From: a virus
Length of the DNA: 64,000 nucleotides
IMG/VR virus record: IMGVR_UViG_3300028840_004184
Coordinates: 106,411 to 170,410 of that record
Direction: 5' to 3' (one strand)
The notes beneath the pieces are model-generated. The model was not told the origin of the DNA and searched no databases. It worked only from the letters and a program-made list of their open reading frames with translations. The translations under genes were made by a program, and so were the position numbers. Below, piece by piece: positions 21,648 through 41,087 of the stretch. How positions within the stretch are numbered: position 1 is the stretch's first letter; every line of letters begins with the position of its first letter.

Positions 21648-21899
21648 TTATGTGTTCTCTTTGCACATCTTGCCTGATTCGATCATTTTGAATATCTCAC
21701 ACGCCATATCTTCGGCGTCACCGATGGTAACATGGCTTGGTAAATAGGTCCATAGCAACTCATTAATGGTTTTTTTCAGTTCTGTGGTATCTGGTTTATC
21801 GAGTGCTCTTTTAACAACGCTTCTATGTATTTTGGGACATTTACATGGTTTTGTACCACATACACAACAAGAGTGATCTCCGTCGAATCGTTTATCCAT
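21648..21899 (-). CDS. small zinc-type protein (83 aa)
   Basis: Start at 21899 (AGAGGGG upstream) overlaps the stop of the CCA-adding enzyme gene by 8 bp. SCCVCGTKPCKC near residue 11 gives four or five Cys for a zinc site; the C-terminal half is helical. Target unknown. Confidence 0.55.
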   Translation of the reverse strand: MDKRFDGDHSCCVCGTKPCKCPKIHRSVVKRALDKPDTTELKKTINELLWTYLPSHVTIGDAEDMACEIFKMIESGKMCKENT

Positions 21900-23178
21900 A
21901 TGTACGCCCCTCTCTATATATTTTGAATGCATCAACTCTTCTCTGGAAGAGGGCACCGCCGAGATTAGGTCCTTCTTCGTACCCCTCTTCAATAAGTTGT
22001 TTGCCCGTAATGGTAGCCTCTATTTCAAAAGCTTTGTCGATGATATCTTCTGCATAATCTAGCCATATCAAAATATCTAAATACTGTGCTCCTTCGCGAT
22101 ATATAGAGTCCAAGGAGGATAGATGCATCAGGCTTTTTATGAATTTTTTATTATTCAAAATCCACCTGAGTAACTTCCCTGGACGCATTTCCTGGATGGT
22201 TTTGATACGCATATGATGTTTTGCACAGAAAACACCGAAGTTCCTAAATTCGTTAGGTATTTTGAGCCTATCACAAAAATCATTAACGGGCTTTTCGCCC
22301 ATTTTGCCATGACCATGGTGAGCGGGATGTATTTCTTTGGGAGTACATCCTTTTCCAAAGTCATGCACCAAGGCTCCAAATCTCATCAAAGGTGTATCAC
22401 TAAAAGTTAAAATATTCATAGTATGGTTAAATGCCGTACCATCATGTTTATCGAAAACATTTAGGGCAGCTACTTCTTTAAAGTGAACATCTAGAACATC
22501 GATACTCTTAAGTACTTCGAAAAAACGCCTTGGGTTAGGTGTCTTCAATACCTTTTCAAATTCAATCCAAACCCGTTCCGGAGTTAAGGTCTCAAGCTGT
22601 TTCTTCATATTATGCATTAATACAAGAGTATGCATATCAATGTCAAATCCAAGCTGAGCCGCAAATCTGGCGGTTCTGTAAACACGGAGCGGATCTTCCT
22701 CGAAAGCTTCCGTGGTATGTCTCAAAATTCTGGACTCAATGTCCTTTTCACCACCAAAAGGGTCAACTACGGCAGACACATCATCCGGGATACAACATTT
22801 TTGCATATGAATCGCTATGGCGTTCATGGTCAGATCTCGTCTGGCTAAATCATCATGAATAGTGACATCTTTGCCTGTAAAAAATGTAAATCCTTTGTAG
22901 CCTACACCGTCTTTTTTCTCCTTACGAGCCATGGCTACTTCACATTTTTTGCCACCAATTTCTACAAGAAATACAGGAAAGTCATCACCGACTACCTTTT
23001 CAAAGGGCATGTCTGTAATATCAATACCCGTAACAACATAGTCCTCATCATTAGAGTTTATACCTAAAAAAGAGTCGCGTACCGCTCCTCCAACCAACCA
23101 AAGATGACCACCTAGCGAATCTATGAAGTTGGCGAATTCTGTTGTGTGTTCAAAGGTTTTTGTTTTCTTTTTTTTCAT
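21892..23178 (-). CDS. cca: CCA-adding tRNA nucleotidyltransferase with HD domain
   Basis: The N-terminus has LVGGAVRD (28-35) followed by DED (44-46), the class II nucleotidyltransferase head with its metal-binding carboxylates. RRDLTMNAIA and EDPLRVYRTARFAAQLG are the standard tRNA NTase/poly(A) polymerase motifs. An HD-type motif (HDFGKG, about residue 270) makes it the longer bacterial type with a phosphohydrolase domain. It would add or restore CCA at tRNA 3' ends. All five tRNA genes of this window already encode CCA, so a repair role is more likely. Start at the ATG at 23178, overlapping the upstream stop. Confidence 0.93.
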   Translation of the reverse strand: MKKKKTKTFEHTTEFANFIDSLGGHLWLVGGAVRDSFLGINSNDEDYVVTGIDITDMPFEKVVGDDFPVFLVEIGGKKCEVAMARKEKKDGVGYKGFTFFTGKDVTIHDDLARRDLTMNAIAIHMQKCCIPDDVSAVVDPFGGEKDIESRILRHTTEAFEEDPLRVYRTARFAAQLGFDIDMHTLVLMHNMKKQLETLTPERVWIEFEKVLKTPNPRRFFEVLKSIDVLDVHFKEVAALNVFDKHDGTAFNHTMNILTFSDTPLMRFGALVHDFGKGCTPKEIHPAHHGHGKMGEKPVNDFCDRLKIPNEFRNFGVFCAKHHMRIKTIQEMRPGKLLRWILNNKKFIKSLMHLSSLDSIYREGAQYLDILIWLDYAEDIIDKAFEIEATITGKQLIEEGYEEGPNLGGALFQRRVDAFKIYREGRTYG

Positions 23179-23387
23179 CAAAGTACCCCATACGAACGGT
23201 ATTTTTTATATTCTCTTCTTGATATTGGTTGCCAGGACAACAGTGTTACTGGTATATCCTTAGTCGGGTCTTCTTCTCTTTTCTCCATGATTCTCTTAAA
23301 GGCCATAAACCAGTCTATTGGATGCTGATTTATGACTTTACAGCTTAATTTAGGGCCACTACGATAACTTATAAAATAGTATTTCAA
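23178..23387 (-). CDS. small hypothetical protein (69 aa)
   Basis: TTG start at 23387 overlapping the upstream TGA, with GAGGAAAA ahead. Contains WFMAFKRIMEKREEDP and ends in a basic YKKYRSYG. Couples the upstream gene to the CCA-adding enzyme. No family recognised. Confidence 0.55.
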   Translation of the reverse strand: MKYYFISYRSGPKLSCKVINQHPIDWFMAFKRIMEKREEDPTKDIPVTLLSWQPISRREYKKYRSYGVL

Positions 23388-23635
23388 TTTTCCTCAGCCT
23401 CCTTTTCTATAGCGTTTATAATGGCTTGACGAATATCTGTAGTGCCACCAGGTTTACTGGTTTCATGCAATCTCCATCCATGCCCAGTAGACGAACGTCT
23501 ACAAATTATTTTACCGGTATATTCTCTCATTTTACTTTGCAGCCAGTCTAGTAGCTCTGTGTCCGAATATTGAGATAGAGAATTTGTTTCTGGTATAGAT
23601 ATTTTTAAATTTGGTTTTGGAAGCCCATTATTCAT
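23384..23635 (-). CDS. small hypothetical protein (83 aa)
   Basis: ATG at 23635 behind GGAGCACGCC. Acidic N-terminus and a conserved-looking GKIICRRSSTGHGWRLHET segment, then a helix. No family recognised. Confidence 0.6.
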   Translation of the reverse strand: MNNGLPKPNLKISIPETNSLSQYSDTELLDWLQSKMREYTGKIICRRSSTGHGWRLHETSKPGGTTDIRQAIINAIEKEAEEN

Positions 23636-23647
23636 TATGGCGTGCTC

Positions 23648-24253
23648 CTATTCTATTTCTAGTGCCTGTTTTATTGGCCATTTTAGTTGATTAATTCTGG
23701 CTTTAACCTTGTTGTAATCTAGACAAAGACTTTCACACCATTCCTTGAGGCATTTGGTGACATTATCGATAGTAATCATTTTGCTAGTACGCCTATTGCG
23801 TGCTTGTGTTTTACGTGTGGTCCATCGACAGTTTTTCTTGTTATAATTGCCATTATTGTTAATCCTGTCAAGTGTTAGCCCACTTGGACACTCCCCCATG
23901 TCTGACAGAAAATTTTCAAATTTTAACCATGTTTTACAAACCGTGATACCGCGAGAACCATAGTGTTTATAAGCTCTATTATGAGGATTGTTGCAACGCT
24001 GAATCATACTGGCCCACGAGCGATATGTTGTTGTATTTTCATAACCATGTTTTATATTGGGTTTTACTTGTTTATTCCAACATCCGCAGCTTTTAGTATT
24101 ACCACTACGAAGGTTATACCCAAGTACTATTGGTCGATTACCGCATTTGCACCGACACAATCAACGCAACTTACCACGACTACAATTAGTTACACGACCT
24201 AAGACGATCAGATAATGAAACTTTTGTCCGGTTAAGTCAACCAATTTACCCAT
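23648..24253 (-). pseudogene. HNH-like homing-endonuclease-type gene with an in-frame TGA at codon 31
   Basis: From an ATG at 24253, directly after a good promoter (24267-24294), the frame encodes MGKLVDLTGQKF... and is stopped by TGA at 24161-24163. It continues in the same frame to 23648. The intact relative at 32271-32870 has Trp at exactly residue 31 (MWLCRCKCG), so TGG became TGA. Downstream motifs (SCGC, YKHYGSRGI, LTLDRINNNGNY, NCRWTTRK) are all intact. Either a recent nonsense mutation, readthrough, or a re-initiation at TTG 24160. The family resembles phage HNH/DNA-binding mobile genes. Confidence 0.75.
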
Positions 24254-24266
24254 AATTATCTCTTAT

Positions 24267-24294
24267 ATTATGACATATATTCAGAAAATGTCAA
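24267..24294 (-). promoter_or_regulatory. sigma70-like promoter for 23648-24253 and following genes
   Basis: Minus strand: TTGACA (24289-24294), 16-bp spacer, CATAAT (24267-24272). The ATG of the interrupted gene is only 14 bases past the -10 box. Confidence 0.7.
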
Positions 24295-24308
24295 GTAAAT
24301 TTTATTTA

Positions 24309-24614
24309 TTATTCTACGATTTCCTTATCCCCGTTTACCCAACCCTCCTGATAATCAATATCATCAGAATCTCTCACTCGCACAGCCTTGGCCGCAACGT
24401 CTGTCCAATCCATATTGTTTTCTGCCCAATCTTCGATATCACATGAATATTGTTCAAAAAATGGCCATGTATCTTCTTCAAGCGAACGACCTATATCGTT
24501 GTCAAATTCATGCTTGTAGTAATCCGCCCTATGTTTTGCTATTACGGAGACGGGAATATCCCATTTCGATCCGTCAGACATAGTAACTCGTAGCTTAGCT
24601 TTTCTTATGTTCAT
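24309..24614 (-). CDS. hypothetical protein (101 aa)
   Basis: Start at 24614 inside the end of the upstream gene (an alternative ATG lies 15 bases further up). N-terminal KAKLRVTMSDGSKWDIPVSV, then an acidic, Trp-rich helix region. I recall small phage proteins with this TMSDGSKWDVP start; their function is unknown to me. Confidence 0.65.
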   Translation of the reverse strand: MNIRKAKLRVTMSDGSKWDIPVSVIAKHRADYYKHEFDNDIGRSLEEDTWPFFEQYSCDIEDWAENNMDWTDVAAKAVRVRDSDDIDYQEGWVNGDKEIVE

Positions 24615-25506
24615 TTGGATTTGGCTCACAATAAAACATATTTTCGTATTCTTGAAGTATTCGTTGTTCTGTTTGTTCGATTAATTTTTTTATCATATCT
24701 TTGTCTATTATTTTATTATGCTCTAAGCATGTAGTAACCCCTGGTGGTGGCCAGAAGAATTTTTCTTCGGACCAATTAATGGCTTTAAAATCTTCTTTAT
24801 CTATTTTTTCTGATTCTTTTACGGGTGTAAGGAGATCTTTTATCTCTGGTGTTAAAAAGCCTTTGTTGTCAAGTATTTGTTTGCACTCCTCGGCAAAAAT
24901 AACGTGAAGCTGAGATATAAAAGAGTTAATCGATATCATGCCCTTTTGCAAAGCTTCTTTAAGAGACTCTTTTTTTCTTTCATCCCACGTTTTGTGACAT
25001 GGCCACTCATGTGTCTGTTTCCAGTTTCTGCGGTCATGTAGCCGACCCCATTCCGCGATAGCTTCTTTTTCAGTTGGCATAGCTCCTGCATGTATACCAC
25101 AATTATAACACCCTACACGGACTCTGTGTTTTAAATGCATTAAATATACACTGTCTCTGCCACTACACCCCCAACACCGCTTATAGGGTTCAGGAAGTTC
25201 ATATTGATGAATAGATGTTTTTGATCCAACACCCCATTTCCGATCAAGTGTAGCCTCAAGGCTGGGATTTTTTAAATGAGTGTCACCTTTCAATATTGTT
25301 TCTTTAGTTTCAGCATCTACAACTTCAAAAGACCACTTACTTATCGCATCAAAGGTTTCTTTCATTGCTTGTTGATAACCAGGCTCCTCACAAAAACCGG
25401 GGGTTTCCAAGGGGGTGTCCACCTTGTTGCAATTGTTAGGACACACTCCCCCCGAAGTCAAAAGATCAATAAGTTCTGCCCCACATATATCACACTTAGT
25501 ATGCAT
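24595..25506 (-). CDS. zinc-ribbon L-[LI]-T-S family protein with Lar-like ribbon (303 aa)
   Basis: Starts MHTKCDICGAELIDLLTS, the shared zinc module, followed by a linker (DTPLETPGF) encoded by hairpin repeat copy 4. At about residues 112-160 a second ribbon reads CWGCSG...VGCYNCGIHAGAMPTEKEAIAEWGRL, close to the Lar restriction-alleviation pattern (CxxC, CxxCG, then EAIxxWN). The C-terminal 140 residues are helical. The Lar relation suggests interference with host restriction, but this is inference. Confidence 0.65.
   Translation of the reverse strand: MHTKCDICGAELIDLLTSGGVCPNNCNKVDTPLETPGFCEEPGYQQAMKETFDAISKWSFEVVDAETKETILKGDTHLKNPSLEATLDRKWGVGSKTSIHQYELPEPYKRCWGCSGRDSVYLMHLKHRVRVGCYNCGIHAGAMPTEKEAIAEWGRLHDRRNWKQTHEWPCHKTWDERKKESLKEALQKGMISINSFISQLHVIFAEECKQILDNKGFLTPEIKDLLTPVKESEKIDKEDFKAINWSEEKFFWPPPGVTTCLEHNKIIDKDMIKKLIEQTEQRILQEYENMFYCEPNPNEHKKS
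25398..25425 (+). repeat. GC-rich hairpin repeat, copy 4 (inside a gene)
   Basis: CCGGGGGTTTCCAAGGGGG-TGT-CCACCTT, inside the 24595-25506 gene immediately after the zinc-ribbon codons, the same relative place as copy 3. Confidence 0.55.
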
Positions 25507-26224
25507 CTTTATCTCCGAACACGAACTCTATTCTATATTGATCAAAATAGTCACTCTCCTTTTCTCTTTTTCCATAAAGGATCATTTTTTCAAAGCCACT
25601 ATGTTCATCATGTGTAAGCCCCAGCATTATGGCCAAAATATCTGAGTCGGTTATTTTAACATCGCAAGTATCAAATGTACAAGTCACAAGTGTACCATTA
25701 GACATTCTATCACCAACCTCGATGGTTACGTCAAGTCGTTCGTTGGTTTTATGCATTATGGACTCAGCCTCACCTAACATAAATTGTTCCTCAAGATCAT
25801 GTGTGCCATGCATATTGATAGAATCTATCGGACCAAGTTCTTCCCAGCCTTGTTCTTGTTGTAATAATTTATTCCAATGTCGTTTGGCTTTCCTAATACT
25901 AGAAAACCCCTTGGTGGCTAATTTAGTTTTACAATCACATGACACACATGTTATAGTGGAAAATGAATATACTTCCTTGTTGTCGATTTTTGTGACATGT
26001 AAATCCGGAAAAGACCCACATTCACAACGCCATAATCCTATATTCATAACATCTAGTGGGCTGCCATCATTGCGTTCTAGCTCAAAACTTGACTCACACG
26101 AAACATTGTTTTGGTCTTCGTGTACAAAATCAGCACCGCTTTGATCCTGCTGATGACAATCCGCAGGACATACCCATGATGTAATAAGTTGAATCATTTC
26201 TTCACCACACTTGGGGCATTTCAT
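25496..26224 (-). CDS. zinc-ribbon L-[LI]-T-S family protein with second ribbon (242 aa)
   Basis: Starts MKCPKCGEEMIQLITSWVC, then PADC. A second ribbon near residues 65-115 reads CECGSFPDL...ITCVSCDCKT...AKRHWNKL, again Lar-like in order. The C-terminal 120 residues are beta-rich (VTIEVGDRMSNGTLVTCTF). It overlaps the start of the downstream gene by 11 bp and the stop of thyX by 4 bp. Confidence 0.65.
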   Translation of the reverse strand: MKCPKCGEEMIQLITSWVCPADCHQQDQSGADFVHEDQNNVSCESSFELERNDGSPLDVMNIGLWRCECGSFPDLHVTKIDNKEVYSFSTITCVSCDCKTKLATKGFSSIRKAKRHWNKLLQQEQGWEELGPIDSINMHGTHDLEEQFMLGEAESIMHKTNERLDVTIEVGDRMSNGTLVTCTFDTCDVKITDSDILAIMLGLTHDEHSGFEKMILYGKREKESDYFDQYRIEFVFGDKDAY

Positions 26225-27003
26225 TTACTTTGTTCCTTTATTTTATCGGCCAAAAGTTTTATTGTTGGTAAATTATAAAACCCATCATCAAAAGAGCTTA
26301 ATGCTCTTTTTATTTGTTCAATGGTATATTTCTTTTTCTTTGCCTTAGGCGGCTTTCCACCACATTTATATTTCCACGCCACAGTATCAAAAATAGGCGG
26401 ATATAGTATCGCAAATTCCTTAAGTAAAGGCAGCATCAAATTACGGATATCTGGATGGGCACCCTTAGAACACCGAAGATTAAACACATGGTTCCATTCA
26501 CGGAAATTGGCTGACATAACAATTTCTGTTTTAAGATCATTGGGTAGTATACCCCTAGCTTGCTGTGGCGATAAACCTATCAAAACGAGTTGTAAATACC
26601 TTTCTTCATCTTGTTCTATGGCATCCATCCACAGTTTACGACATTCTTCTGAATACTCACTCCATGTACTTGGTCGTACAAATGTTAATTGATTATCAAA
26701 TTTATCATTTGAATAATTACAGTATCTAGTACTTTCTTGGGAATAGGCAGCAATGCGATGCCGAACAAGTTCGTGGGTTACGCCACGGTTAGTGATAAAT
26801 CGGACAGATGCATCCGAGTGCTCTATGACAGATAAATGACCACGGCCCATAATGCGACTCAAAAATTCGTCCGACTGTTCGGGCGAAACGTCCATCATAT
26901 TTTCTGTTTTATAGCATGTCCTGGCCGCTCTTTCGATCCGCTTTAGTGCGATCTCCGGTTCCGGCTTCCATTCCCATCCGTAATATTGCTTTACTATTTT
27001 CAT
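26221..27003 (-). CDS. thyX: flavin-dependent thymidylate synthase ThyX
   Basis: R81-H-R83 followed by IAAYSQESTRY is the ThyX motif (RHRxxSxxxxSxR) that binds dUMP and FAD; GRGHLSVIEH ahead of it is also typical. At 260 residues it is of normal ThyX length. It makes dTMP from dUMP with methylene-tetrahydrofolate, FAD and NADPH, supplying thymidylate for phage DNA synthesis. Overlaps the upstream gene by 4 bp. Confidence 0.95.
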   Translation of the reverse strand: MKIVKQYYGWEWKPEPEIALKRIERAARTCYKTENMMDVSPEQSDEFLSRIMGRGHLSVIEHSDASVRFITNRGVTHELVRHRIAAYSQESTRYCNYSNDKFDNQLTFVRPSTWSEYSEECRKLWMDAIEQDEERYLQLVLIGLSPQQARGILPNDLKTEIVMSANFREWNHVFNLRCSKGAHPDIRNLMLPLLKEFAILYPPIFDTVAWKYKCGGKPPKAKKKKYTIEQIKRALSSFDDGFYNLPTIKLLADKIKEQSK

Positions 27004-27284
27004 TCTGGGTCTTCCTGATCGGAAGGAGGAGGAACACTACCGACTTCCTGAGAAAGATGTACGTGAATAGGATCATCGATACTAATATCTACCTTTTCAT
27101 TGTGACCTAGGTCTCTGTCGGCAGGAGTTTTGAAGAAAATTTGTAGACCAGTAACCCTAGTCTTGCCCGTAATTACTCTTTTAAGACGCAAATATTCTAC
27201 TATATCATTCTCGTCCAGTGTTATAACGTCTTTTTTGATTTGTACATATTCAGTTTTTACTTTAACTTTTTTCTTGTCTGTCAT
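27000..27284 (-). CDS. hypothetical protein (94 aa)
   Basis: Basic N-terminus (MTDKKKVKVKTEYVQIKK) and acidic, proline-rich C-terminus (PPPSDQEDPE). A beta-rich middle. No family recognised. Sits between a zinc-ribbon gene and thyX, overlapping both. Confidence 0.6.
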   Translation of the reverse strand: MTDKKKVKVKTEYVQIKKDVITLDENDIVEYLRLKRVITGKTRVTGLQIFFKTPADRDLGHNEKVDISIDDPIHVHLSQEVGSVPPPSDQEDPE

Positions 27285-27531
27285 TTTCCTTTTCCTTTCC
27301 TAAAAGTTCTGTCGGTATACAAAATGCCTCTATTATTTCTTTTTCTATGCGTGTACGAATATTTATTAAATCGTCCCATTCAGGGACGACAGCAAATTCT
27401 ATAAACTCTATGGATTGAAGATTTTTGAACGTACAAGATATTGAGGAAATCATTTTATCACATTCCTTTGGGCATACCCACGAAGTCAATAATGGAACCA
27501 TTTTAGACCCGCATATCTCACATTTGTTCAT
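27262..27531 (-). CDS. zinc-ribbon L-[LI]-T-S family protein, short form (89 aa)
   Basis: Start at 27531 (ATG) inside the end of the upstream gene, so that the product begins MNKCEICGSKMVPLLTSWVC, then PKEC. Only about 60 further residues follow, making this the smallest member of the family: almost the ribbon alone plus a short helical tail. Confidence 0.65.
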   Translation of the reverse strand: MNKCEICGSKMVPLLTSWVCPKECDKMISSISCTFKNLQSIEFIEFAVVPEWDDLINIRTRIEKEIIEAFCIPTELLGKEKENDRQEKS

Positions 27532-27928
27532 CGTAACTATCATCTCCGACATGTGGTAGGTTACCATAGAACATTTCAGTTATGTTTGCTGCGGTAGCCA
27601 ATATAAAGCGTCTTATTGGTATTAATTCTGGATGAGCAACCAAAAAAGACAATAATTGACCCATTTGTCCTGTGGTTAATTTTAATTCTTGATTATTCTC
27701 AACAATTTTTGGGTCTTTATCCTTACAGTCCTCTGCCCACACATTCATAGCGTTCCATATTAAACTAGCCGCAACATACATGCTTGTTTTCACAGACATT
27801 GCTTCGGCAAAGGCATGTTTTTTAAGATGTTCGTTATATGCCTTTAATTGATTTTTTTCTTTTTCACTTAACGGCTGTAAAAGATATGGAAATTCATTGT
27901 ATACATCAGCGTCATCATTTATTTCCAT
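27518..27928 (-). CDS. hypothetical helical protein (136 aa)
   Basis: Start at 27928 chosen because AAAGGAGAAGG precedes it. The product looks mainly helical (SEKEKNQLKAYNEHLKKHAF, then SMYVAASLIWNAMNVW). No family recognised. Confidence 0.6.
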   Translation of the reverse strand: MEINDDADVYNEFPYLLQPLSEKEKNQLKAYNEHLKKHAFAEAMSVKTSMYVAASLIWNAMNVWAEDCKDKDPKIVENNQELKLTTGQMGQLLSFLVAHPELIPIRRFILATAANITEMFYGNLPHVGDDSYDEQM

Positions 27929-30804: not shown

Positions 30805-31056
30805 CTATTCATATGAGGGTTCGTGTATCGGTCCAGCAAACAATCCACCGAAGCCTTCGCTTCGTCCAATATCTTGACAGTGAAAAAATCTAATCTTGGG
30901 ACACTCCATAACAACAAAACAGGCGAGGGTGCCACGGCCATCCCTGATTTTCTTAACCCGGATAATCGCATAGTCCCTCGGGTTCATGTCAGTGTCCGTC
31001 CTGCGATAAAAGTACAGTCCGGGCCTCTTAGGAAGATCTTTGGTCCATTTATACAT
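30805..31056 (-). CDS. small hypothetical protein (83 aa)
   Basis: Start at 31056 (ATG with AGGTGA upstream). The product begins MYKWTKDLPKRPGLYFYR; the phrase P-x-PGxYFYR is common in small phage proteins that I know only as hypothetical. Beta-rich. Confidence 0.6.
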   Translation of the reverse strand: MYKWTKDLPKRPGLYFYRRTDTDMNPRDYAIIRVKKIRDGRGTLACFVVMECPKIRFFHCQDIGRSEGFGGLFAGPIHEPSYE

Positions 31057-31816
31057 CGTTTTCACCTATAGCTACTTTTTCCAACAATTCTTCGGCAAAT
31101 ATCATGAATGTATTGAAGTCATACGCTTCTTCGGAACGCTGTTTTAGCTCTTCAACTACCACAGTCAAATAGCTGATATCTATGCCTCTCAATTGATTGG
31201 CTAAGGCGTCAAAATTGTACAGCGGTAGACTATGTACCTTAAGAGCCATCTTGACTATTTCCATTGCCGAAATTCTGTACCCACGCTCGATATACTTCCT
31301 AACGCGGAACAGTGAGGCGATAGGGAATTCAGACTTAGTGTTATAAACCAACCTCTTTGACGCCAAATGATGCATGAAATCTTTATGAAACCAAAACTGA
31401 TCCTGTTTGATGCCATACATAGCCATGCAAACCGTGAAATCGAAATTATCAAATACGTGAGACGAAAAACACGCCTCTGCCAGGTCGGGTTTTAAGAAGC
31501 GGTCCATAATGATGACTTGTAGAACGCACTTGTCCCATTTGTACGTAACTGCTGTATCCGTATGGGTTAATTCTACTACCCTTTCATGGTCCTTACCCTT
31601 GGTTAAGATATAAAGCTGAACATCTTTCAGAAATTGGTCCCGATGTTCTCGTAGCTGAAAATATACGTCCAGATCTTTAATCCGGCTACGGCTAAAAGCG
31701 GCGGTTATAGCACCGCCAGCGATGCACGCACAGTTTTTGCTTAAGAGCCTCCATAGCTCATCAGGGACATATTGTCTAATAATATATTTTTCTCTTTGAT
31801 ATTCCATTATTCGCAT
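31049..31816 (-). CDS. nucleotidyltransferase-like protein (255 aa)
   Basis: Residues about 33-55 read CIAGGAITAAFSRSRIKDLDVYF: a GG-(x)n-S...DxDxxF arrangement typical of polymerase-beta-type nucleotidyltransferases, in particular of the tRNA NTase head. The rest is helical. One of three such enzymes in the minus-strand block. Substrate unknown; a poly(A) polymerase-like or tRNA-modifying role is possible. Confidence 0.65.
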   Translation of the reverse strand: MRIMEYQREKYIIRQYVPDELWRLLSKNCACIAGGAITAAFSRSRIKDLDVYFQLREHRDQFLKDVQLYILTKGKDHERVVELTHTDTAVTYKWDKCVLQVIIMDRFLKPDLAEACFSSHVFDNFDFTVCMAMYGIKQDQFWFHKDFMHHLASKRLVYNTKSEFPIASLFRVRKYIERGYRISAMEIVKMALKVHSLPLYNFDALANQLRGIDISYLTVVVEELKQRSEEAYDFNTFMIFAEELLEKVAIGENDV

Positions 31817-32270: not shown

Positions 32271-32870
32271 CTATTTCTCCAATTCAAACGTTTCTTGAAT
32301 AGAACATCCGCGTCTTAATCGTCCATACACTGTTTGACGATTTAAGCCAAATATATCGCACCATTCTGTGATACATTTTGTTTGGTTATTAATTGTAATC
32401 ATTCTATTTCTACGATAATTAGTGTTTTGTTGTTGTCGTGTAGCCCATCTACAATTTTCTTTACAATAATCTCCATTGTTATCGATTCGGTCGAGAGTTA
32501 AACCGTCTGGTTTTTCTCCCATATCTTTAAGAAAGTTTTCAAATTTTAGCCATGCTTTGCAGATACAGATGCCGCGACCACCATAGTTTTTATATGATTT
32601 ATGATTAGAATTTGTACAACGCTGAATCATTTCTTTCCATATATTATGTATATCTGTGTTGGTATAGCCATGTTTATAGATATTTTCTTTATTTAGACAT
32701 CCGCAACTTTTTGTGTGGCCACTTTTAAGATTATCACTTTGTACGGTCGTATAATTACCGCATTTACATCTACATAGCCACATTGCGTGTTTTTTAGTAT
32801 TATTATTAATACGCTTTATAACTGTTAGTCGATAAAATGTTTTATCAATTAAATCTACTATTCTGGGCAT
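32271..32870 (-). CDS. HNH-like homing-endonuclease-type protein (199 aa)
   Basis: The N-terminal 60 residues carry CRCKCGNYTTV...SGHTKSCGC, a zinc site. The middle has YKNYGGRGI, then LTLDRIDNNGDY and NCRWATRQQQNTNYRRN, and the C-terminus looks like a helix-turn-helix (TEWCDIFGLNRQTVYGRL). This order is typical of stand-alone phage mobile genes annotated as HNH or AP2-type endonucleases. Intact relative of the interrupted gene at 23648-24253. Confidence 0.75.
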   Translation of the reverse strand: MPRIVDLIDKTFYRLTVIKRINNNTKKHAMWLCRCKCGNYTTVQSDNLKSGHTKSCGCLNKENIYKHGYTNTDIHNIWKEMIQRCTNSNHKSYKNYGGRGICICKAWLKFENFLKDMGEKPDGLTLDRIDNNGDYCKENCRWATRQQQNTNYRRNRMITINNQTKCITEWCDIFGLNRQTVYGRLRRGCSIQETFELEK

Positions 32871-33233: not shown

Positions 33234-33250
33234 AATATACAACTCTCCTT

Positions 33251-33287
33251 TTGTACGATGAATTTGTTGTACGATAATTTTATCGTA
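33251..33287. promoter_or_regulatory. operator-like palindrome and direct half-sites
   Basis: TACGATAA-TT-TTATCGTA (33270-33287) is a perfect 8-bp palindrome. A direct repeat TTGTACGAT occurs at 33251-33259 and 33267-33275. It lies between the Thg1-like gene stop and the MazG-like gene start. Confidence 0.5.
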
Positions 33288-33289
33288 TA

Positions 33290-34084
33290 TTAACTCCTGA
33301 TGATTTGTTTGTGGATTCTGTTCGGCGAAGATATAATCCCCTGAATGAGATTATCATGTAGATCACCGACAGGTAATGTATCATCAATACGAATTCTTCT
33401 ACGAAGCACTTCTACCTTTTCTTGAGTCTTGGGATTAAAACCTTCCTTGGGTTTTAGCATCCAGTAGGCCCCGGTGCCGTTTCTTTTCCAGCTTTCAAGT
33501 TCGTCGAAATTGACGTTATTTCGTAGAAGCATATTTTTCTTCTCTGCAACACCTGTACCATTCATCCATGATGCCGCTTTTCTGCGTGACATATTTTCAA
33601 GGCTTACAAGAGTCCAGAATGCAGCAGAGTTCAACGCATTTCTTTGGGCATCCGCCATACGCCATCTGAAATAATCTTTCACGTCTGCGACGTGAGGTAA
33701 TAGTACAATTCGGCAATCGAATACGAGCGGAGAGCCAGCTATCATTGTCATATGAGCACTTGCTTCTCCGGCAAGGACAGAGATCCATTTACGAATTTTG
33801 CGGTCGAATGAATCGTCATACGGATCGATCAACAATGAAATCTCATCGCTTTGTGTATACCCGTACAAAATATTGAATCCACGATTGTTCATCAGATATC
33901 CCAACGTAGTTGTCATAGCTACGTGAAAATTGTCATCAAACGGTTTAGTATAACCAGATTTTTCAAGCAGCTTGGTGAAACCACGACCATCCAACCTCGC
34001 GATAGCATACGTACCTGGTATAACTGATGGATCATCCGCCTTTTCAAAAGCACGCATTCTTGCGTCGAATTCTTTGAACTTCAT
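33290..34084 (-). CDS. Thg1-like 3'-5' RNA polymerase (tRNAHis guanylyltransferase family)
   Basis: R30-LDGRGF (D32) and S79-D80-E81 are the two metal-binding motifs of the Thg1 fold, and the surrounding text (GYTQSDEISLLI, ILAGE-like helix, W-rich tail) matches the family; 264 residues is the usual length. Thg1 adds G to the 5' end of tRNAHis; Thg1-like proteins repair 5'-truncated tRNAs by 3'-5' addition. No tRNAHis gene is present, so repair is the better guess. ATG at 34084 behind AAGGAAG. Confidence 0.88.
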   Translation of the reverse strand: MKFKEFDARMRAFEKADDPSVIPGTYAIARLDGRGFTKLLEKSGYTKPFDDNFHVAMTTTLGYLMNNRGFNILYGYTQSDEISLLIDPYDDSFDRKIRKWISVLAGEASAHMTMIAGSPLVFDCRIVLLPHVADVKDYFRWRMADAQRNALNSAAFWTLVSLENMSRRKAASWMNGTGVAEKKNMLLRNNVNFDELESWKRNGTGAYWMLKPKEGFNPKTQEKVEVLRRRIRIDDTLPVGDLHDNLIQGIISSPNRIHKQIIRS

Positions 34085-34099
34085 TTCATCTTCCTTTTT

Positions 34100-34705: not shown

Positions 34706-34707
34706 AG

Positions 34708-34998: not shown

Positions 34999-35003
34999 TT
35001 TGT

Positions 35004-35486
35004 CTACCTCCATCCTTCTGGGTCTATGAAAATTATTGGCTTATCTTTTTCTCTGGCATATTTAATTGTAGAACCTGTGCCGCTTTTCCAGTCACCACCA
35101 AACACCGCAACCAATATTTGACATTTATCCACCATAAACCTATCTCTAATATGCATTTTTTCTGGAGAATATCCGCCTTCAGAAACGTACACTGGTGTAA
35201 CTATTTTGTCACGTAAGATATCATGATATTTACTTTGTTGATAATGTGGCCACTTAGATTCTTGGCCCTTAAAAGGTATAGCTGCTATAAGACTTACTCT
35301 ATATTTGATGGCTTTTTCTGCCCACAATGTATCGCTGCCTAATGCCATACCACTAATCATTTCTGTTGGTTTAAGCAATAATATAATTTCTTCCATTTTC
35401 TGCAAAACGTAATTGCTATATGGTCCTCTGTGACCCCATTCGTTGCCAAGTCTATTCGGTCTATGTCCAGTTATCGCTACTCTCAT
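35004..35486 (-). CDS. SLOG-superfamily (YpsA/DUF1273-like) protein
   Basis: GHRPNRLG at the N-terminus, SGMALGSDTLWAE in the middle, then RDRFMVDKC and GGDWKSGTGSTIKYA: the Rossmann-like nucleotide-binding signature of YpsA-type SLOG proteins. 160 residues fits. SLOG domains bind nucleotides, and some act in defence signalling or DNA uptake. Here it may sense or process a nucleotide signal; inferred only. Confidence 0.82.
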   Translation of the reverse strand: MRVAITGHRPNRLGNEWGHRGPYSNYVLQKMEEIILLLKPTEMISGMALGSDTLWAEKAIKYRVSLIAAIPFKGQESKWPHYQQSKYHDILRDKIVTPVYVSEGGYSPEKMHIRDRFMVDKCQILVAVFGGDWKSGTGSTIKYAREKDKPIIFIDPEGWR

Positions 35487-35869
35487 TATTTCTCTTTCTC
35501 CGGAGCCGGGGCCTGCATACTATTCAACCTCGCTGTTTCAAACTCTATGCATCTTGCAAGGATTTCCAGTGCATTTTGAGGATCGTCCCTGTGTAGAAGA
35601 AGACTGATGATTTGACCATATTGATATATATGTAAATCATACATTGCATGAATTGCTTCATCTCCTGTGACACCAGATTCTTCTATACCATCTCTTGCTC
35701 GCTGATCCCACCAGTCCACATAAGACTGTATCCCACCCATTAATGCTTTTATGGCAACAGAAAGACTAACATTAGATTCATTAATTATATTTTGAAACTT
35801 GGTAACTAGATTTCTAGCCTGCTCTATTTCTTCATCTGTTGCTTGTTGAAATAAATCATTAGTATTCAT
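35486..35869 (-). CDS. hypothetical helical acidic protein (127 aa)
   Basis: ATG at 35869; the downstream start at 35486 overlaps its stop (TAATG). The product is helical and acidic, rich in Gln. No family recognised. Confidence 0.6.
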   Translation of the reverse strand: MNTNDLFQQATDEEIEQARNLVTKFQNIINESNVSLSVAIKALMGGIQSYVDWWDQRARDGIEESGVTGDEAIHAMYDLHIYQYGQIISLLLHRDDPQNALEILARCIEFETARLNSMQAPAPEKEK

Positions 35870-35890
35870 ACCGTATCAGCCCAATAAGCT

Positions 35891-38200
35891 TCATCCTTTT
35901 AGTACTGCTAGTGTTCTTAATTTAACCACAGGTTCTACTAGATCTTTTTGTGCCTCCATAACTTCATCGATATTTTTATATGCCTGTGGTGCTTCACTTA
36001 AGTCATATCTTGTGCCAGGCAATGTAGCACTTCTTTTTATTCTTCCTCTGCTTCTTTTAAAGCCGTCCCATACAATACCATCCATTGCTGTATCACATTC
36101 CTCTTTACTGAATGTGGCTGATGCCTGGGTTCTACTCATAGTTCTCCCTGCTCCGTGAGAACATGATTTAAAAGACTGTTCGTTACCAAGTCCCTTAACA
36201 ATATAAGAAAAACTTCCCATTGCACCAGGAATTATACCAAATTGTCCTAGTTTGGCAGAAGTAGCACCTTTACGGTGAATCCAAAGATTTTTACCAAAGT
36301 GATTTTCTATGGTTGCATAGTTATGATGTATGTTTACTTCCATACCAAATTTAACATCGTTGAATATTTCAGCTATACTTGTTTTGACAACTTGCATCAT
36401 ACGCGTTCTGTTTTCCTCAGCATAAGCCAATGCAAAATTCATATCATAAATATAGTGAACACCCCAAACACTATCCGTCGGTAAAAAAGCTAAGTCGTTA
36501 CATGGTAAAACAGAATGCCATTGTTTGTTTAATTCTTTTGCAGTATCATTCCAGTGCTTAGCTATTTGATAACCTAGATTCCTCGACCCAGAATGCAACA
36601 TAATCCACACAAACCCATCATCACCTGCCTGTATTTCAATAAAATGATTACCACCACCCAGTGTGCCAAGGTTCCGTTTTGCTAATTCCCACATTTTTTC
36701 ATTATACCATCCGCCCATTATCGGTGGTGCTTCTGGGGTCTGGCTATAGCCATGCGATTTTTTGAATGTGTCCATACCTGTCCATTCTTGTGGATGAGCA
36801 TGAGCATGACCTTCTCCCATAGGAACACGCAATTTAATTTTATTAATAATTTCACGCAATTGTTGTTTTTTAATAGATGTTAATGTGGTTCTGACTGCAC
36901 ACATGCCGCAACCTATGTCTACTCCAACGGCATTTGGAATTACAGCATTGTGACAAGCGATCACACCACCTATAGGCATGCCGTATCCTTGATGACAGTT
37001 CCCGGTGACAAAAGTTAAACCATTTTGCCTTGCTATAAAAAAACCAGAATCACATGATAAACATACTACGTTATCACTATAGTCTATTTGGTTTTTAACC
37101 AATATGCTGTTATGAATACCATTGCCGGATTCTATGACATTATTTTTATCAATAGATGATAAATAATGCATCTTGATATTTTGATATCCTTCGCTTAATC
37201 TAGTATTGTCGTTAGCAATACCAGTATGTATAGCTATCAGTGATGATATAAAATTAACATCACTTGTTCTTTTCGAATTATATCTTTTAGCACCGGTTTT
37301 TTGATAGTTAAGCCAGTCACCGTCCACCTTTAATATTTCTTCTAATAATATTGTAGCTTGATTATCCGATAGGCTTGTGATAAAATCTACCGGATATTCT
37401 TTATTTACACCAATATACTCAATGATTTTTGCACTATATTTAGTGTGTATTTCTATAGATGTTTGTTGATTATCTATTCTTATGTTATATGTATAACCTA
37501 ATGATGTTAATAATTGTATTATCCTATTTATCTTACGTTCCTTTGTTAAACCAAACCTAATAATAATACTGCTGAAGGTTCCATCTGGTTTTTTATTATT
37601 TTTCTTTAGATTGCCATCACCCACAACCCAGGCGATTAGACATAATAGTTCATACTGTATATCAAGATAAGGCTTGTTTGTGTCTGTTTTACTTTTTTTA
37701 ATACCATTGCCACTCCATATATAATGTGATATAAATGTTTTGTCTGGTATATCTAATACTCTAGTATCATAGTGTTTGCCATTATATGGCTTATATGTCA
37801 TTCTATGATTTTCTGTAACAACAATATTCTTATCTAGAAACGTAGATATAAATTCAAATACTTTTTCGTCTTTTCTTAGCGGACGATTGATAATAGCTGT
37901 TGGGTGCATAAAATATATCTTACCATCATCTGGGTCATAGTTAGCTACCTTGTCGTCATATGACAATTCACTGATTAATTTAAAACCACAAGATGTTAAA
38001 ACTTCTGTATTATTAGATAAACAATCTGCCATTAATGCAACATGATTTCTAATCACCGGATGATGTGCTAAATTCTTAGCCTGCTCAAGTGCTCCATCTT
38101 CCAAATCTTTACACCATGACTTGATATTTATATTGCTATTTTTACCACCATCTATGAAACGCATTGATACTTTTTCCCATTGAAGCATCGGTGCGGCCAT
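35891..38200 (-). CDS. rtcB: RtcB-type RNA ligase interrupted by an intein
   Basis: Extein parts (residues 1-59 and 402-769, 427 residues after splicing) match RtcB: CHQGYGMPIGG, ACHNAVIPNAVGVDIGCGM, GTLGGGNHFIE, LHSGSRNLG, HRKGATSA and GSFSYIVKG. RtcB joins 2',3'-cyclic phosphate (or 3'-P) to 5'-OH RNA ends with GTP and Mn. The intein (residues 60-401) sits directly before the metal-binding Cys of CHQGYG, the strongest place to block activity before splicing. Reseals cleaved tRNA or mRNA; in this phage likely counters anticodon nucleases. Confidence 0.93.
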   Translation of the reverse strand: MAAPMLQWEKVSMRFIDGGKNSNINIKSWCKDLEDGALEQAKNLAHHPVIRNHVALMADCLSNNTEVLTSCGFKLISELSYDDKVANYDPDDGKIYFMHPTAIINRPLRKDEKVFEFISTFLDKNIVVTENHRMTYKPYNGKHYDTRVLDIPDKTFISHYIWSGNGIKKSKTDTNKPYLDIQYELLCLIAWVVGDGNLKKNNKKPDGTFSSIIIRFGLTKERKINRIIQLLTSLGYTYNIRIDNQQTSIEIHTKYSAKIIEYIGVNKEYPVDFITSLSDNQATILLEEILKVDGDWLNYQKTGAKRYNSKRTSDVNFISSLIAIHTGIANDNTRLSEGYQNIKMHYLSSIDKNNVIESGNGIHNSILVKNQIDYSDNVVCLSCDSGFFIARQNGLTFVTGNCHQGYGMPIGGVIACHNAVIPNAVGVDIGCGMCAVRTTLTSIKKQQLREIINKIKLRVPMGEGHAHAHPQEWTGMDTFKKSHGYSQTPEAPPIMGGWYNEKMWELAKRNLGTLGGGNHFIEIQAGDDGFVWIMLHSGSRNLGYQIAKHWNDTAKELNKQWHSVLPCNDLAFLPTDSVWGVHYIYDMNFALAYAEENRTRMMQVVKTSIAEIFNDVKFGMEVNIHHNYATIENHFGKNLWIHRKGATSAKLGQFGIIPGAMGSFSYIVKGLGNEQSFKSCSHGAGRTMSRTQASATFSKEECDTAMDGIVWDGFKRSRGRIKRSATLPGTRYDLSEAPQAYKNIDEVMEAQKDLVEPVVKLRTLAVLKG
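36998..38023 (-). mobile_element. intein with LAGLIDADG-type endonuclease in rtcB
   Basis: 342 residues from Cys60 to Asn401 of the precursor, followed by Cys402. Block A: CLSNNTEVLTSCGFKLISEL; block B: VTENHRM; end: SGFFIARQNGLTFVTGN. Two LAGLIDADG-like helices, LLCLIAWVVGDGN (residues 185-197) and LLEEILKVDGDWL (285-297), indicate a homing endonuclease. The penultimate residue is Gly rather than His, as in some other inteins ending in TGN. Confidence 0.88.
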
Positions 38201-38224
38201 AACGACCGCACCGATTTAGTTATA

Positions 38225-38569
38225 CTACACTTCTCTTGAAGGAGCAGGCGGAGGTGGAGGAGGTGGATTGAATCCTGGTCCTGGTTGTCCGACAGGTACA
38301 ACTGGTGTCCCAGGAGGAGGTGAAAAGATAGCTCCTTTGTCCTGCATCTCCTTGACAAACCTCGCGTGTTCTTGCTGCTTGCTTTTCCCGTTGTCGGCAA
38401 TTCCCTGGCCGAGAATTTGTACACCAAACAAACCGGCGGTAGTCGGGATTAACATCATTAATGCTTCAGGCTTTGGAAAAAATACGCCGAAAAGCAAATA
38501 TTCAATGATAATTAGCCCCACACCGATAGCAGCCGACTGAAACTTTTTACTTCCAAACAAATCTGACAT
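38225..38569 (-). CDS. small membrane protein with Pro-rich tail (114 aa), holin candidate
   Basis: Two hydrophobic segments at about residues 13-31 and 36-57, a short charged linker, then a C-terminal tail of about 35 residues dominated by Pro and Gly (with FNPPPPPPPAPS near the end). Two-helix membrane proteins of this size include holins, but no endolysin is seen nearby. Function inferred only. Confidence 0.45.
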   Translation of the reverse strand: MSDLFGSKKFQSAAIGVGLIIIEYLLFGVFFPKPEALMMLIPTTAGLFGVQILGQGIADNGKSKQQEHARFVKEMQDKGAIFSPPPGTPVVPVGQPGPGFNPPPPPPPAPSREV

Positions 38570-38596
38570 CTTTCTTACTCTCCTTAACGAAAAAAA

Positions 38597-38830
38597 TTAG
38601 TCGCCATTTCCATTTCTCGGATCACGCAACGGCACATAACGCACAGGTCTAGTAATTTCCCAGTATGCATCACAGGGACCGTCTTCTATCTGCCTTTTTT
38701 CCCAGACACGATAAACGTCATAGGCCGCCTTTTCCGAGGAAAACAACAGCGGTCCATTCATTGGGTCGAATATTACCCAGATCTCTCGCGGGATACGCAT
38801 GTCTTTTTGTGCTCTTTTTCCTTTCTTCAT
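38597..38830 (-). CDS. small hypothetical protein (77 aa)
   Basis: Start at 38830 for GAAAGG upstream; one base from the upstream stop. Basic N-terminus, with EIWVIFDPMNGPLLFSS and a C-terminal EITRPVRYVPL. No family recognised. Confidence 0.6.
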   Translation of the reverse strand: MKKGKRAQKDMRIPREIWVIFDPMNGPLLFSSEKAAYDVYRVWEKRQIEDGPCDAYWEITRPVRYVPLRDPRNGNGD

Positions 38831-38831
38831 A

Positions 38832-39635
38832 CTACCTTTCTCCAAATTGATAAATAAACTGACGGAATATTTTATTAAGCTGTTTTGTTTGAGTTTTAAG
38901 ATCTGGTTTGCCTGAGTGTATAGTTTTGAAATCTATTTTATCAAGACGAGCCATTTCATTATCGATAAAAGCGTGTATATTATTTATCCTACGCCCTATA
39001 GATAATTCCTTTCCATTACGTTTATTCTCTACAAGTTGATCAATCGACTTACGGAGCCCGGCAGGCAAATCTATAGCATCCACCAAAGTTTCGAAATCGA
39101 CAGGTACAGTATTTGTACGATTATTTTCTATCCATTTACATGCAAGCATTGGGCGAAGGACATAAAAATATTTCTTAGTCCATACCTCGTCGCCTTTAAG
39201 ATATTCCCGGTAGTTGCCCTTTCCCATATTAAAGTAATGATAAATGCATGATACCGGCGAGTAAAACTCAGGTAGTATTTGCTTAAGAGCCGCTGATAGA
39301 TCCCACAAGCCTGGTCCCACTTTGTCAATATACACTATCGGTGAGTGGAGCCATTCTAAAAGAGGAGGATTAGATTTTCGAAATAATCGGAGTGCTTTGC
39401 TAAGTTCCCAACCAGCAAAATCTAGTGGTTCTTCCATTCGCTCAATAACGTCTTTTTTTTGTCGATCGATATCGATATACCATGATTCGTCATGAGCATA
39501 TATGAATCTCACGTCATAATCACTGTCTTTGGACTGGAAGCCCCAGGCACGCGAACCAGCTTCGCACGCAAACAAAATGCGGACACCTTTTTCTTGCTCT
39601 GTCTTTTTGAGCATATCCAAAATTTTATCACGCAA
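38832..39635 (-). CDS. YcgL-type nucleotidyltransferase (COG3541-like)
   Basis: The N-terminus has FACEAGSRAWGFQSKDSDYDVRFIY: GSRxWGFxSxDSDYDxR is the active-site signature of the YcgL family of polymerase-beta-type nucleotidyltransferases, with the two Asp as metal ligands. 267 residues fits. TTG start at 39635 behind AAGGAACTAGTG. Substrate unknown; the family is common in large phages. Has its own promoter (39671-39699). Confidence 0.85.
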   Translation of the reverse strand: MRDKILDMLKKTEQEKGVRILFACEAGSRAWGFQSKDSDYDVRFIYAHDESWYIDIDRQKKDVIERMEEPLDFAGWELSKALRLFRKSNPPLLEWLHSPIVYIDKVGPGLWDLSAALKQILPEFYSPVSCIYHYFNMGKGNYREYLKGDEVWTKKYFYVLRPMLACKWIENNRTNTVPVDFETLVDAIDLPAGLRKSIDQLVENKRNGKELSIGRRINNIHAFIDNEMARLDKIDFKTIHSGKPDLKTQTKQLNKIFRQFIYQFGER

Positions 39636-39670
39636 TTCACTAGTTCCTTAAATAATTGGTATATGAAATC

Positions 39671-39699
39671 ATTCTATCATATCAAAATTAGAATGTCAA
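39671..39699 (-). promoter_or_regulatory. sigma70-like promoter for 38832-39635 and following genes
   Basis: Minus strand: TTGACA (39694-39699), 17-bp spacer, TAGAAT (39671-39676). Lies between the 3' end of tRNA-Gln and the start at 39635. Confidence 0.75.
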
Positions 39700-39719
39700 G
39701 CTGTTTTTGAAATAATTTT

Positions 39720-39796
39720 TGGCACGGGGAGCAGGATTCGAACCTGCATTATTCAGCTTCAAAAGCTGATAGGTTAGCCAATTACCTCATCCCCGC
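39720..39796 (-). tRNA. tRNA-Gln (anticodon TTG)
   Basis: 77 nt including encoded CCA. Acceptor GCGGGGA with TCCCCGT (first pair G-U), T-arm GCAGG-TTCGAAT-CCTGC, anticodon stem TCAGC/GCTGA with loop TTTTGAA, anticodon TTG. Confidence 0.93.
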
Positions 39797-39799
39797 TTT

Positions 39800-40195
39800 A
39801 TCCATTTGCGTATTGTGTTGCTACTTACGCCATATTTGGTTGCTGTTTTTTCATAATTGGTTGCTTTGATTTCTTCTGTCAATACCTCGATCGATGGTCT
39901 TTGTGTCTTTCTTCTTGATTTATCAAAGCATGTTTTACATAATCCTGTTAATCAGTATTTCATTTAATGGTCTTGGTTTACCTATTTTTTCAGTACGTTT
40001 TTTATTAGCCCTTTTTCTAAGTTCAGAGATGTCTATGTTGTCGTAATTGACCCTATTTATAAAAGTGCGGAAATTTCCACCCTTATTTAATAGGCCAAAA
40101 TGTTTCAAAACATCACTTATAGTATCAGAGACAGATATAATTTCAATAAGGCGATCTCTTGGTATCTTCCATATGATACTTCTTCGTTTACGCAT
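39800..40195 (-). pseudogene. degenerate HNH-type homing endonuclease between tRNA genes
   Basis: An ATG at 40195 opens 86 codons resembling the N-terminal part of phage HNH endonucleases (IWKIPRDRLIEIISVSDTIS...LKHFGLLNKGGNFRTF). The frame stops at 39935. Shifted by one base, the sequence continues as CKTCFDKSRRK...TEEIKATNYEKTATKYGVSSNTIRKWIK, the C-terminal zinc/HTH part of such enzymes. The HNH core between them is missing. So it is an inactive remnant with a deletion and frameshift, lodged between tRNA-Gln and tRNA-Phe. Confidence 0.7.
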
Positions 40196-40266
40196 ACATA
40201 ACCCTTTTATTATGAAGCAAAAAAAATTATACTGTGCAGTAGAATTCTACTGAGCAGTGGAATAAT

Positions 40267-40340
40267 TGGTGGGCGGAGAAGGAATCGAACCTCCGTGGGT
40301 AGGTCTTCAGCCTACAGCCTTACCACTAGGCTATCCGCCC
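40267..40340 (-). tRNA. tRNA-Phe (anticodon GAA)
   Basis: 74 nt including encoded CCA. Acceptor GGGCGGA/TCCGCCC, anticodon stem GTAGG/CCTAC with loop CTGAAGA, T-loop TTCGATT. Confidence 0.95.
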
Positions 40341-40342
40341 AT

Positions 40343-40418
40343 TGGTGGACCGTGTAGGACTTGAACCTACCACCTACCGCTTAAAAGGCGGTTGCTCTAC
40401 CTGATGAGCTAACGGTCC
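40343..40418 (-). tRNA. tRNA-Lys (anticodon TTT)
   Basis: 76 nt including encoded CCA. Acceptor GGACCGT/ACGGTCC, anticodon stem ACCGC/GCGGT with loop CTTTTAA. Only two bases separate it from tRNA-Phe. Confidence 0.95.
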
Positions 40419-40473
40419 AGGTAGTTAAATTTTCGCCTATATTTCTTCATTATGTAGCCTCTTTTTTGAGTTT

Positions 40474-40547
40474 TGGAGGCTCTGGGAGGAATCAAACCTC
40501 CGTACAGCGGTTAACAGCCGCACGCTAAGTCACTCAGCTACAGAGCC
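40474..40547 (-). tRNA. tRNA-Asn (anticodon GTT)
   Basis: 74 nt including encoded CCA. Acceptor GGCTCTG/CAGAGCC, anticodon loop CTGTTAA. The T-loop reads TTTGATT rather than the usual TTCRANY, a small deviation. Confidence 0.92.
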
Positions 40548-40554
40548 TTGTGTT

Positions 40555-40631
40555 TGGTAGCCCCACCAGGACTCTAACCTGGAACTTACGGTTTAGAAGA
40601 CCGTTACTCTATACGGTTGAGTTATGGGGCT
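40555..40631 (-). tRNA. tRNA-Arg (anticodon TCT)
   Basis: 77 nt including encoded CCA. Acceptor AGCCCCA/TGGGGCT, anticodon stem ACGGT/ACCGT with loop CTTCTAA. It reads AGA codons, which are frequent in this genome. Confidence 0.93.
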
Positions 40632-40637
40632 TTAGAA

Positions 40638-41087
40638 TTATTTTTTCGGAAAAACAGCACATATACCATCTAGATGATCTATCTCGTGCTGAATTATTCT
40701 AGCAATGTTTTTGTCATCGAACCAGGCAGTATGACATTCAAAGTTTTGATCATAGTATTTAACACTAACTTTGGGATATCTTTTAACAAAAGAATGTGTG
40801 CCTGGTAAACTTAGGCACCCCTCATGAGACCTAAAAGTGTTGCCGTCTCTGTCAATGATCTCTGGATTAATCAGAACTAATTCGCTCTTTCTCTTTGGTG
40901 GTCTTGGATTTATAACGCACAGCCTTACTAACCACCCCACTTGTGGTGCAGCCAAACCGACTCCACCATAGGCGTAAGTTAAATTAAATATTTGTCGAAT
41001 TTTTTCTTCCAGATTCGTAACCTGGTTTTTCTCAAGTAGTTCTGCTTTTTTGAAGAGGTCTTGATGCGGATAAAGTAAAATTTGCAT
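40638..41087 (-). CDS. def: peptide deformylase
   Basis: The three signature motifs are intact: GVGLAAPQ (42-49), EGCLS (89-93) and HEIDH (134-138), giving the Cys and two His that bind the catalytic metal and the general base Glu. It removes the formyl group from nascent N-terminal Met. 149 residues, shorter than most bacterial enzymes, as is usual for phage versions. Cotranscribed with the tRNAs on the minus strand. Confidence 0.95.
   Translation of the reverse strand: MQILLYPHQDLFKKAELLEKNQVTNLEEKIRQIFNLTYAYGGVGLAAPQVGWLVRLCVINPRPPKRKSELVLINPEIIDRDGNTFRSHEGCLSLPGTHSFVKRYPKVSVKYYDQNFECHTAWFDDKNIARIIQHEIDHLDGICAVFPKK

Follow-up and report, generated by a model that had tools for sequence, protein, structure and literature searches.

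What use could a large tailed phage have for a CCA-adding enzyme, a Thg1-like 3'-5' polymerase, an RNA ligase of the RtcB type and an RlaP nucleotidyltransferase encoded together with tRNA genes? This question is raised by a minus-strand gene block at positions 14,485-41,087 of a 64,000-nucleotide stretch (hereafter the window), which corresponds to bases 106411-170410 of the 170,410-bp linear virus record IMGVR_UViG_3300028840_004184. The analysis was extended to the whole record. The first-pass annotation of the window had interpreted these genes, together with a nucleotidyltransferase at 31049, as an RNA-repair kit directed against tRNA-cutting defences. The gene map and the ARAGORN and profile matches place all five enzymes and five tRNA genes in this single block, as that annotation had described. 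The enzyme identities, the catalytic motifs, the recurrence of the genes in other phages and published proposals for jumbo phages all favour a repair kit, whereas the picture of five tRNAs and no ligase pair had to be corrected, since the window is only a part of the record. We consider it probable (roughly 0.6) that the phage carries here an RNA-maintenance gene set that repairs and replaces tRNAs damaged during infection. The four genes on which this reading centres, and the intein found in one of them, are as follows (window coordinates).

21892-23181, minus strand: predicted CCA-adding enzyme, class II, with HD region (Pfam, PHROGs, NCBIfam, motifs)
33290-34084, minus strand: Thg1-like protein (TLP type), predicted 3'-5' polymerase (Pfam Thg1 and Thg1C; PDB 5axk)
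35891-38200, minus strand: rtcB, predicted RNA ligase with intein, 769 residues unspliced (Pfam RtcB, E value 9e-102; active-site residues)
36998-38023, minus strand: intein in RtcB, residues 60-401, 342 residues (splice junctions, alignment, other phage inteins)
38832-39635, minus strand: RlaP nucleotidyltransferase, YcgL family (Pfam PF10127, E value 3e-81)

The RtcB ligase, its intein and RlaP

The RtcB assignment made in the first pass is confirmed by the Pfam profile and by an alignment with the PDB structure of Pyrococcus horikoshii RtcB (E value 2e-34), in which D428, C431, H519, H536, H626 and H682 align with the P. horikoshii positions. We take these six residues to be the manganese-binding Asp, Cys and His residues and the His that accepts guanosine monophosphate (GMP). 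What had been overlooked is the 342-residue intein. The reading frame reaches 769 residues because residues 60-401 form this intein, which exhibits C60, the block B motif TxxH (as TENH), and N401 followed by C402. The spliced protein of 427 residues would retain the metal- and GMP-binding residues and is predicted to be an active ligase. The penultimate residue of the intein is a glycine instead of the usual histidine; the same ending, TGN followed by C, is observed in the RtcB inteins of Pseudomonas phage PS119XW, of the IMG/VR contig G027 and of G059. Over its full length, the intein matches those of phage nicotinamide phosphoribosyltransferase, ribonucleotide reductase, terminase and other genes, and its LAGLIDADG signal is weak (LAGLIDADG_3, E value 0.02).

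Inteins in RtcB are already known in general, and NCBIfam holds families for them. The intein described here has the junctions MAD|C at its start and GN|CHQGYG at its end. In PS119XW, G027 and G059, the RtcB intein lies at a different site, the active-site cysteine, which is the first residue of CGM. No intein was present in any of the 80 closest IMG/VR RtcB genes, whose open reading frames comprise 382-456 residues. The DNA encoding the N-CHQGYG junction was sought in IMG/VR viral contigs and in one genome per species (84,980 species); 49 matches were obtained, none of them in the RtcB frame, in a search that is blind to intein sites with other downstream sequences. The Pseudomonas phages HPP-Temi and PS119XW, which belong to one genus, differ in the presence of the intein at the active-site cysteine, as expected of a mobile element.

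The gene at 38832, which had been called a YcgL-type nucleotidyltransferase, is confirmed as RlaP: it scores 273 bits against a cut-off of 23 for PF10127 and exhibits the nucleotidyltransferase motif GSRAWGF...SDYDVRF. The YcgL label is acceptable, as Bacillus subtilis has a PF10127 protein and phage records name the gene YcgL. RtcB and RlaP are separated by 632 bp.

tRNA genes and predicted tRNA-end enzymes

Five tRNA genes, each encoding its CCA, lie directly upstream of the RlaP gene.

39720-39796, minus strand: tRNA-Gln (ttg)
40267-40340, minus strand: tRNA-Phe (gaa)
40343-40418, minus strand: tRNA-Lys (ttt)
40474-40547, minus strand: tRNA-Asn (gtt)
40555-40631, minus strand: tRNA-Arg (tct)

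The number five holds within the window and not for the phage, as ARAGORN identifies 24 tRNA genes in the whole record; the other 19 are clustered at 82-92 kb. Together they cover 19 amino acids, Cys alone being uncovered. The encoded CCA, reported for the five genes, extends to all 24. The phage had also been said to have no tRNA-His; such a gene is present at record positions 87122-87197 and encodes both the G at position -1 and C73. The deduction drawn from that wrong premise, that the CCA-adding and Thg1-like enzymes are not needed for normal maturation, nevertheless holds: both enzymes are dispensable for ordinary tRNA maturation because all 24 tRNAs encode CCA and tRNA-His encodes its G-1. 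Within the main cluster, a tRNA-like element at record positions 83537-83632 scores 29.8 bits with the Rfam tRNA model and is rejected by ARAGORN; about 30 nucleotides separate the CCAGT and ACTGG of its anticodon arm, and it does not end in CCA.

Both the cca gene at 21892 and the Thg1-like gene at 33290 are borne out by profile matches. The first matches PolyA_pol (6e-17), PolyA_pol_RNAbd (6e-12), the tRNA nucleotidyltransferase family phrog_2244 (7e-97) and the NCBIfam multifunctional CCA family PRK10885 (3e-93); its top NCBIfam matches are CCA enzymes, yet they fall under the curated cut-offs. The motifs GGAVRD, DED, RRD and EDPLR are intact and the RNA-binding neck is also present. This protein is therefore presumed to be a class II CCA-adding enzyme that may repair tRNA 3' ends. 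The Thg1-like protein matches Pfam Thg1 (9e-27) and Thg1C (4e-15), and its probable metal-binding residues D32, D80 and E81 are unchanged across eight phage proteins. Its closest solved structure is 5axk (E value 4.5e-26), the Thg1-like protein of the archaeon Methanosarcina acetivorans. The phage protein lacks the HINNLYN motif of eukaryotic Thg1 and reads DAQRNALNSAAFW where 3otb reads DCHINNLYNTVFW. Assignment as a eukaryotic tRNA-His guanylyltransferase (Thg1 proper) was thus rejected, and the protein was classed as a TLP. These features fit a putative 5'-end repair polymerase better than a tRNA-His enzyme.

A probable second ligase

Outside the window and beside the main tRNA cluster, at record positions 79580-80902, lies a gene for a probable adenosine triphosphate (ATP)-dependent RNA ligase of the Rnl5/DRB0094 type. 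Its NCBIfam TIGR02306 score is just under the cut-off (150.6 bits against 151.15, E value 5e-44), and its matches to Pfam RNA_ligase (2e-18) and to the PHA02142 OB fold (8e-34) are both above cut-off. The first-pass statement that no Pnkp/Rnl1 pair is present stands in so far as neither a PF13671 kinase nor Rnl1 was found among the open reading frames of the record; it does not stand as the absence of a ligase pair, given this second ligase. In the arm with the tRNA cluster 35 proteins were scanned with Pfam, and in the window 29; none of them matched a kinase, KptA, macro domain, 2H phosphoesterase or PTH2. Phage T4, in which Pnkp and Rnl1 restore tRNAs after cleavage by an anticodon nuclease of the host, offers an analogy only; its ligase chemistry is different.

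A Gad2-like nucleotidyltransferase

A further enzyme of the block, previously listed as a nucleotidyltransferase-like protein, is real and belongs to a family that contains Gad2.

31049-31816, minus strand: Gad2-like nucleotidyltransferase with predicted CCA-enzyme fold, 255 residues (Gad2 identity; predicted structure, PDB matches)

The protein is placed in a broad family of phage proteins by its PHROGs matches (phrog_18122, phrog_4400 and others) and is 33% identical over 209 residues, in the N-terminal nucleotidyltransferase domain, to Gad2 of Bacillus phage SPbetaL7, a protein whose anti-Gabija activity has been experimentally verified (PMC10767833, PMC12904381). This identity, together with the finding that 33 of 35 large phage contigs with Gad2-like genes have no RtcB, would suit a Gad2-type Gabija inhibitor that is located among counter-defence genes and stands outside the RNA-repair kit. 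Gad2 comprises 400 residues, whereas the phage protein lacks the C-terminal half, which is not encoded by a neighbouring gene either; the same half is missing in many of its nearest relatives, and filing the protein as Gad2 was rejected on this ground. Moreover, its predicted structure (mean predicted local distance difference test score 86.8) best matches CCA-adding enzymes (5hc9, E value 6.8e-8, template modelling score 0.54 on the query). Genes for an RNA ligase, an RlaP-like protein or a CCA enzyme occur at most 5 kb from 12 of 80 Gad2-like IMG/VR genes and from 1 of 111 random loci; this difference is only suggestive, because the 12 come from about six independent lineages (a thirteenth match, probably the Gad2-like gene itself, was dropped). 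In view of this evidence on both sides, we regard a role as Gabija inhibitor apart from the kit as a tentative option, somewhat short of an even chance.

A bolder proposal, which we put forward as a long shot, is that the Gad2-like nucleotidyltransferases, including the one at 31049, might be phage RNA- or tRNA-end-modifying enzymes with a CCA-enzyme fold, allied to RNA ligases and RlaP, that Gad2 might block Gabija through an RNA-directed reaction, and that RtcB might be active only after loss of the intein at a site unseen in the other RtcBs searched.

Possible roles of the gene set

From the families to which these enzymes belong, we infer their activities, and a sequence of reactions can be proposed. 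Host enzymes that cut tRNA anticodon loops would leave 2',3'-cyclic-phosphate and 5'-OH ends. Spliced RtcB would seal such tRNA halves with no need for a kinase, and RlaP may refill a nucleotide lost from an end ahead of ligation. Damage at tRNA 3' ends could be mended by the CCA enzyme and damage at 5' ends by the Thg1-like one, and the Rnl5-type ligase may close 5'-phosphate/3'-OH breaks. The 24 phage tRNAs would replace lost ones for nearly every amino acid. We infer likewise that the enzymes have cleaved tRNA as their substrate, work jointly and benefit the phage by making it resistant to tRNA-cutting defences. This benefit is deduced from published work on jumbo phages, for which Iyer et al. 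(2021) already proposed a role of RtcB, RlaP, CCA and Thg1 enzymes in RNA repair and counter-defence (PMC7824862), as also proposed in PMC2904730, and from experiments in which phage tRNAs overcame retron-Eco7 and PrrC170 (PMC11555353).

The same genes could instead support translation, the enzymes maturing and maintaining the 24 phage tRNAs while host tRNA and mRNA decay during a long infection and RtcB mending general RNA damage, in which case no dedicated host tRNA nuclease would be required. The nearly complete tRNA set agrees with this, as does the location of RlaP, which adjoins tRNAs in the window and has tRNAs nearby at four IMG/VR loci (L020, L023-L025), and the CCA enzyme is an all-round quality-control enzyme for tRNA 3' ends. 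The tRNA genes nevertheless already encode CCA and G-1, and to our knowledge RtcB and RlaP play no part in ordinary bacterial tRNA maturation, so that this explanation appears rather unlikely.

Gene arrangement and recurrence in other phages

Whole-record family searches revealed RtcB, RlaP, Thg1 and CCA together in the Brevundimonas phages Gurke and Marchewka, in Caulobacter phage CcrColossus and in one IMG/VR contig (G015, 278,859 bp). RtcB, RlaP and Thg1 are found in the Burkholderia phages FLC9 and BcepSauron and in Bacillus phage BM15, and Thg1, RlaP and CCA in Cronobacter phage GAP32. Gurke, Marchewka and CcrColossus share the same four families per genome, but their four genes are spread over about 80-130 kb and their RtcB matches are uninterrupted. 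In FLC9 (LC667451.1, about 202.8-212.1 kb), a stretch of about 9 kb contains RlaP, RtcB and Thg1, all annotated merely as hypothetical proteins. RlaP is adjacent to or near RtcB in FLC9, in Pawinskivirus and at the IMG/VR loci L023-L025. In the Pawinskivirus phages PS119XW and HPP-Temi, RlaP lies two small genes away from RtcB, which carries an intein in PS119XW; they differ from the window in the position of this intein (after GVDIG, at the active-site cysteine, and not after MAD), in the adjacent genes for nicotinamide adenine dinucleotide (NAD) salvage, and in having no Thg1 or CCA match. In the contig G027, a phage with few other genes in common with ours, a 13-kb segment encodes, all on the same strand, Gad2-like, RlaP-like and CCA proteins, a tRNA and an RtcB that contains an intein.

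In a comparison of contigs of at least 100 kb, RtcB accompanied RlaP in 4 of 11 cases, whereas 2 of 35 control contigs had it (Fisher p 0.02 without correction, the phages being related). The controls had been picked by their Gad2-like gene and so are partly dependent on the question; a random 14-mer sample gave few contigs of that size among those listed. Thg1 (2/11 against 9/35) and CCA (1/11 against 9/35) were not enriched with RlaP. Single-protein IMG/VR scans with ThyX and Thg1 gave no matches, and alignments were used instead. Based on these results, the linkage of RtcB and RlaP is supported, and the larger set forms a loose guild and no operon.

Several observations weigh against a coordinated repair function. 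The genes do not constitute a dedicated operon, being interspersed across about 18 kb with genes for ThyX, MazG, HNH nucleases, a SLOG protein and others, and the four are usually scattered in other phages. The co-occurrence test is small and its phages are interrelated. Most phage RtcB genes have no such partners nearby: around the 80 closest viral ones, RlaP turns up within 10 kb in a single case, and Thg1 and CCA in no case, so that RtcB would often work without partners. Furthermore, characterised Thg1 proteins act on 5'-phosphate ends (PMC2904730), and in a phage where no PF13671 kinase was found direct action of Thg1 on 5'-OH halves would not be expected.

The probability of finding the four genes within 17.7 kb by chance is 0.4% under uniform placement in the record and 4% when they are confined to an 80-kb accessory region, both values being post hoc.

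It is unlikely, in our view, that accessory genes have merely piled up in one genome arm, with enzymes that act separately or ride with homing elements (the HNH genes and the intein): the interleaving with unrelated and HNH genes, the solitary position of most viral RtcB genes and the lack of Thg1 enrichment speak for such an accidental grouping, but the proximity of RtcB and RlaP recurs in several phage groups and G027 has a similar cluster on a different backbone.

Neighbouring genes

No close relative of the region was found by megablast among 50,697 phage records, and the terminase has only distant relatives (about 23% identity), mostly in Bacillus phages. Genes for HNH-type endonucleases lie between the kit genes and the tRNAs, and the last of them is short and perhaps truncated.

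23648-24160: HNH-type endonuclease
32271-32870: HNH-type endonuclease
39935-40195: HNH-type endonuclease, short
35004-35486: SLOG-fold protein (YpsA/DprA-like), near RtcB

PADLOC gave no match among the kit proteins tested; its sole match was the neighbouring SLOG protein (as ShosA). An N-terminal zinc-ribbon tag resembling MKCPKCGxxMxxLLTSWVCPxxC opens at least ten otherwise dissimilar proteins.

14485-14991, 16127-16564, 17800-18282, 24595-25506, 25496-26224 and 27262-27567 (window): zinc-ribbon-tagged proteins
73766, 74940, 84276 and 104150 (record, outside the window): zinc-ribbon-tagged proteins

One of them, at record positions 73766-74737, is a possible nucleotidyltransferase-like protein of 323 residues, IAGGAGLFAEGYTNNYGDVDVF, which has no Pfam or NCBIfam match.

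Implications

As the literature already contains this proposal for these enzymes, the gene set represents a further example of a known system. Like the sets of jumbo phages (PMC7824862), it combines RtcB or ATP-dependent ligases with RlaP, CCA, Thg1 and many tRNAs, with the same proposed role; it differs in being encoded in a 170-kb record, with four genes within 18 kb and an intein in RtcB, and the main text of that work makes no mention of Rnl5/DRB0094. The least familiar details are the RtcB intein site and the Gad2-like enzyme, whose presence in kit neighbourhoods hints that anti-Gabija proteins might be connected with RNA-end chemistry, an idea of which we found no published test. The phage adds a compact case, in which both ligase chemistries occur with a near-complete set of tRNAs, to the idea that large phages may outlast tRNA-cutting immunity through tRNA repair and replacement. 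The occurrence of the same guild on different phage backbones makes this repair idea testable gene by gene.

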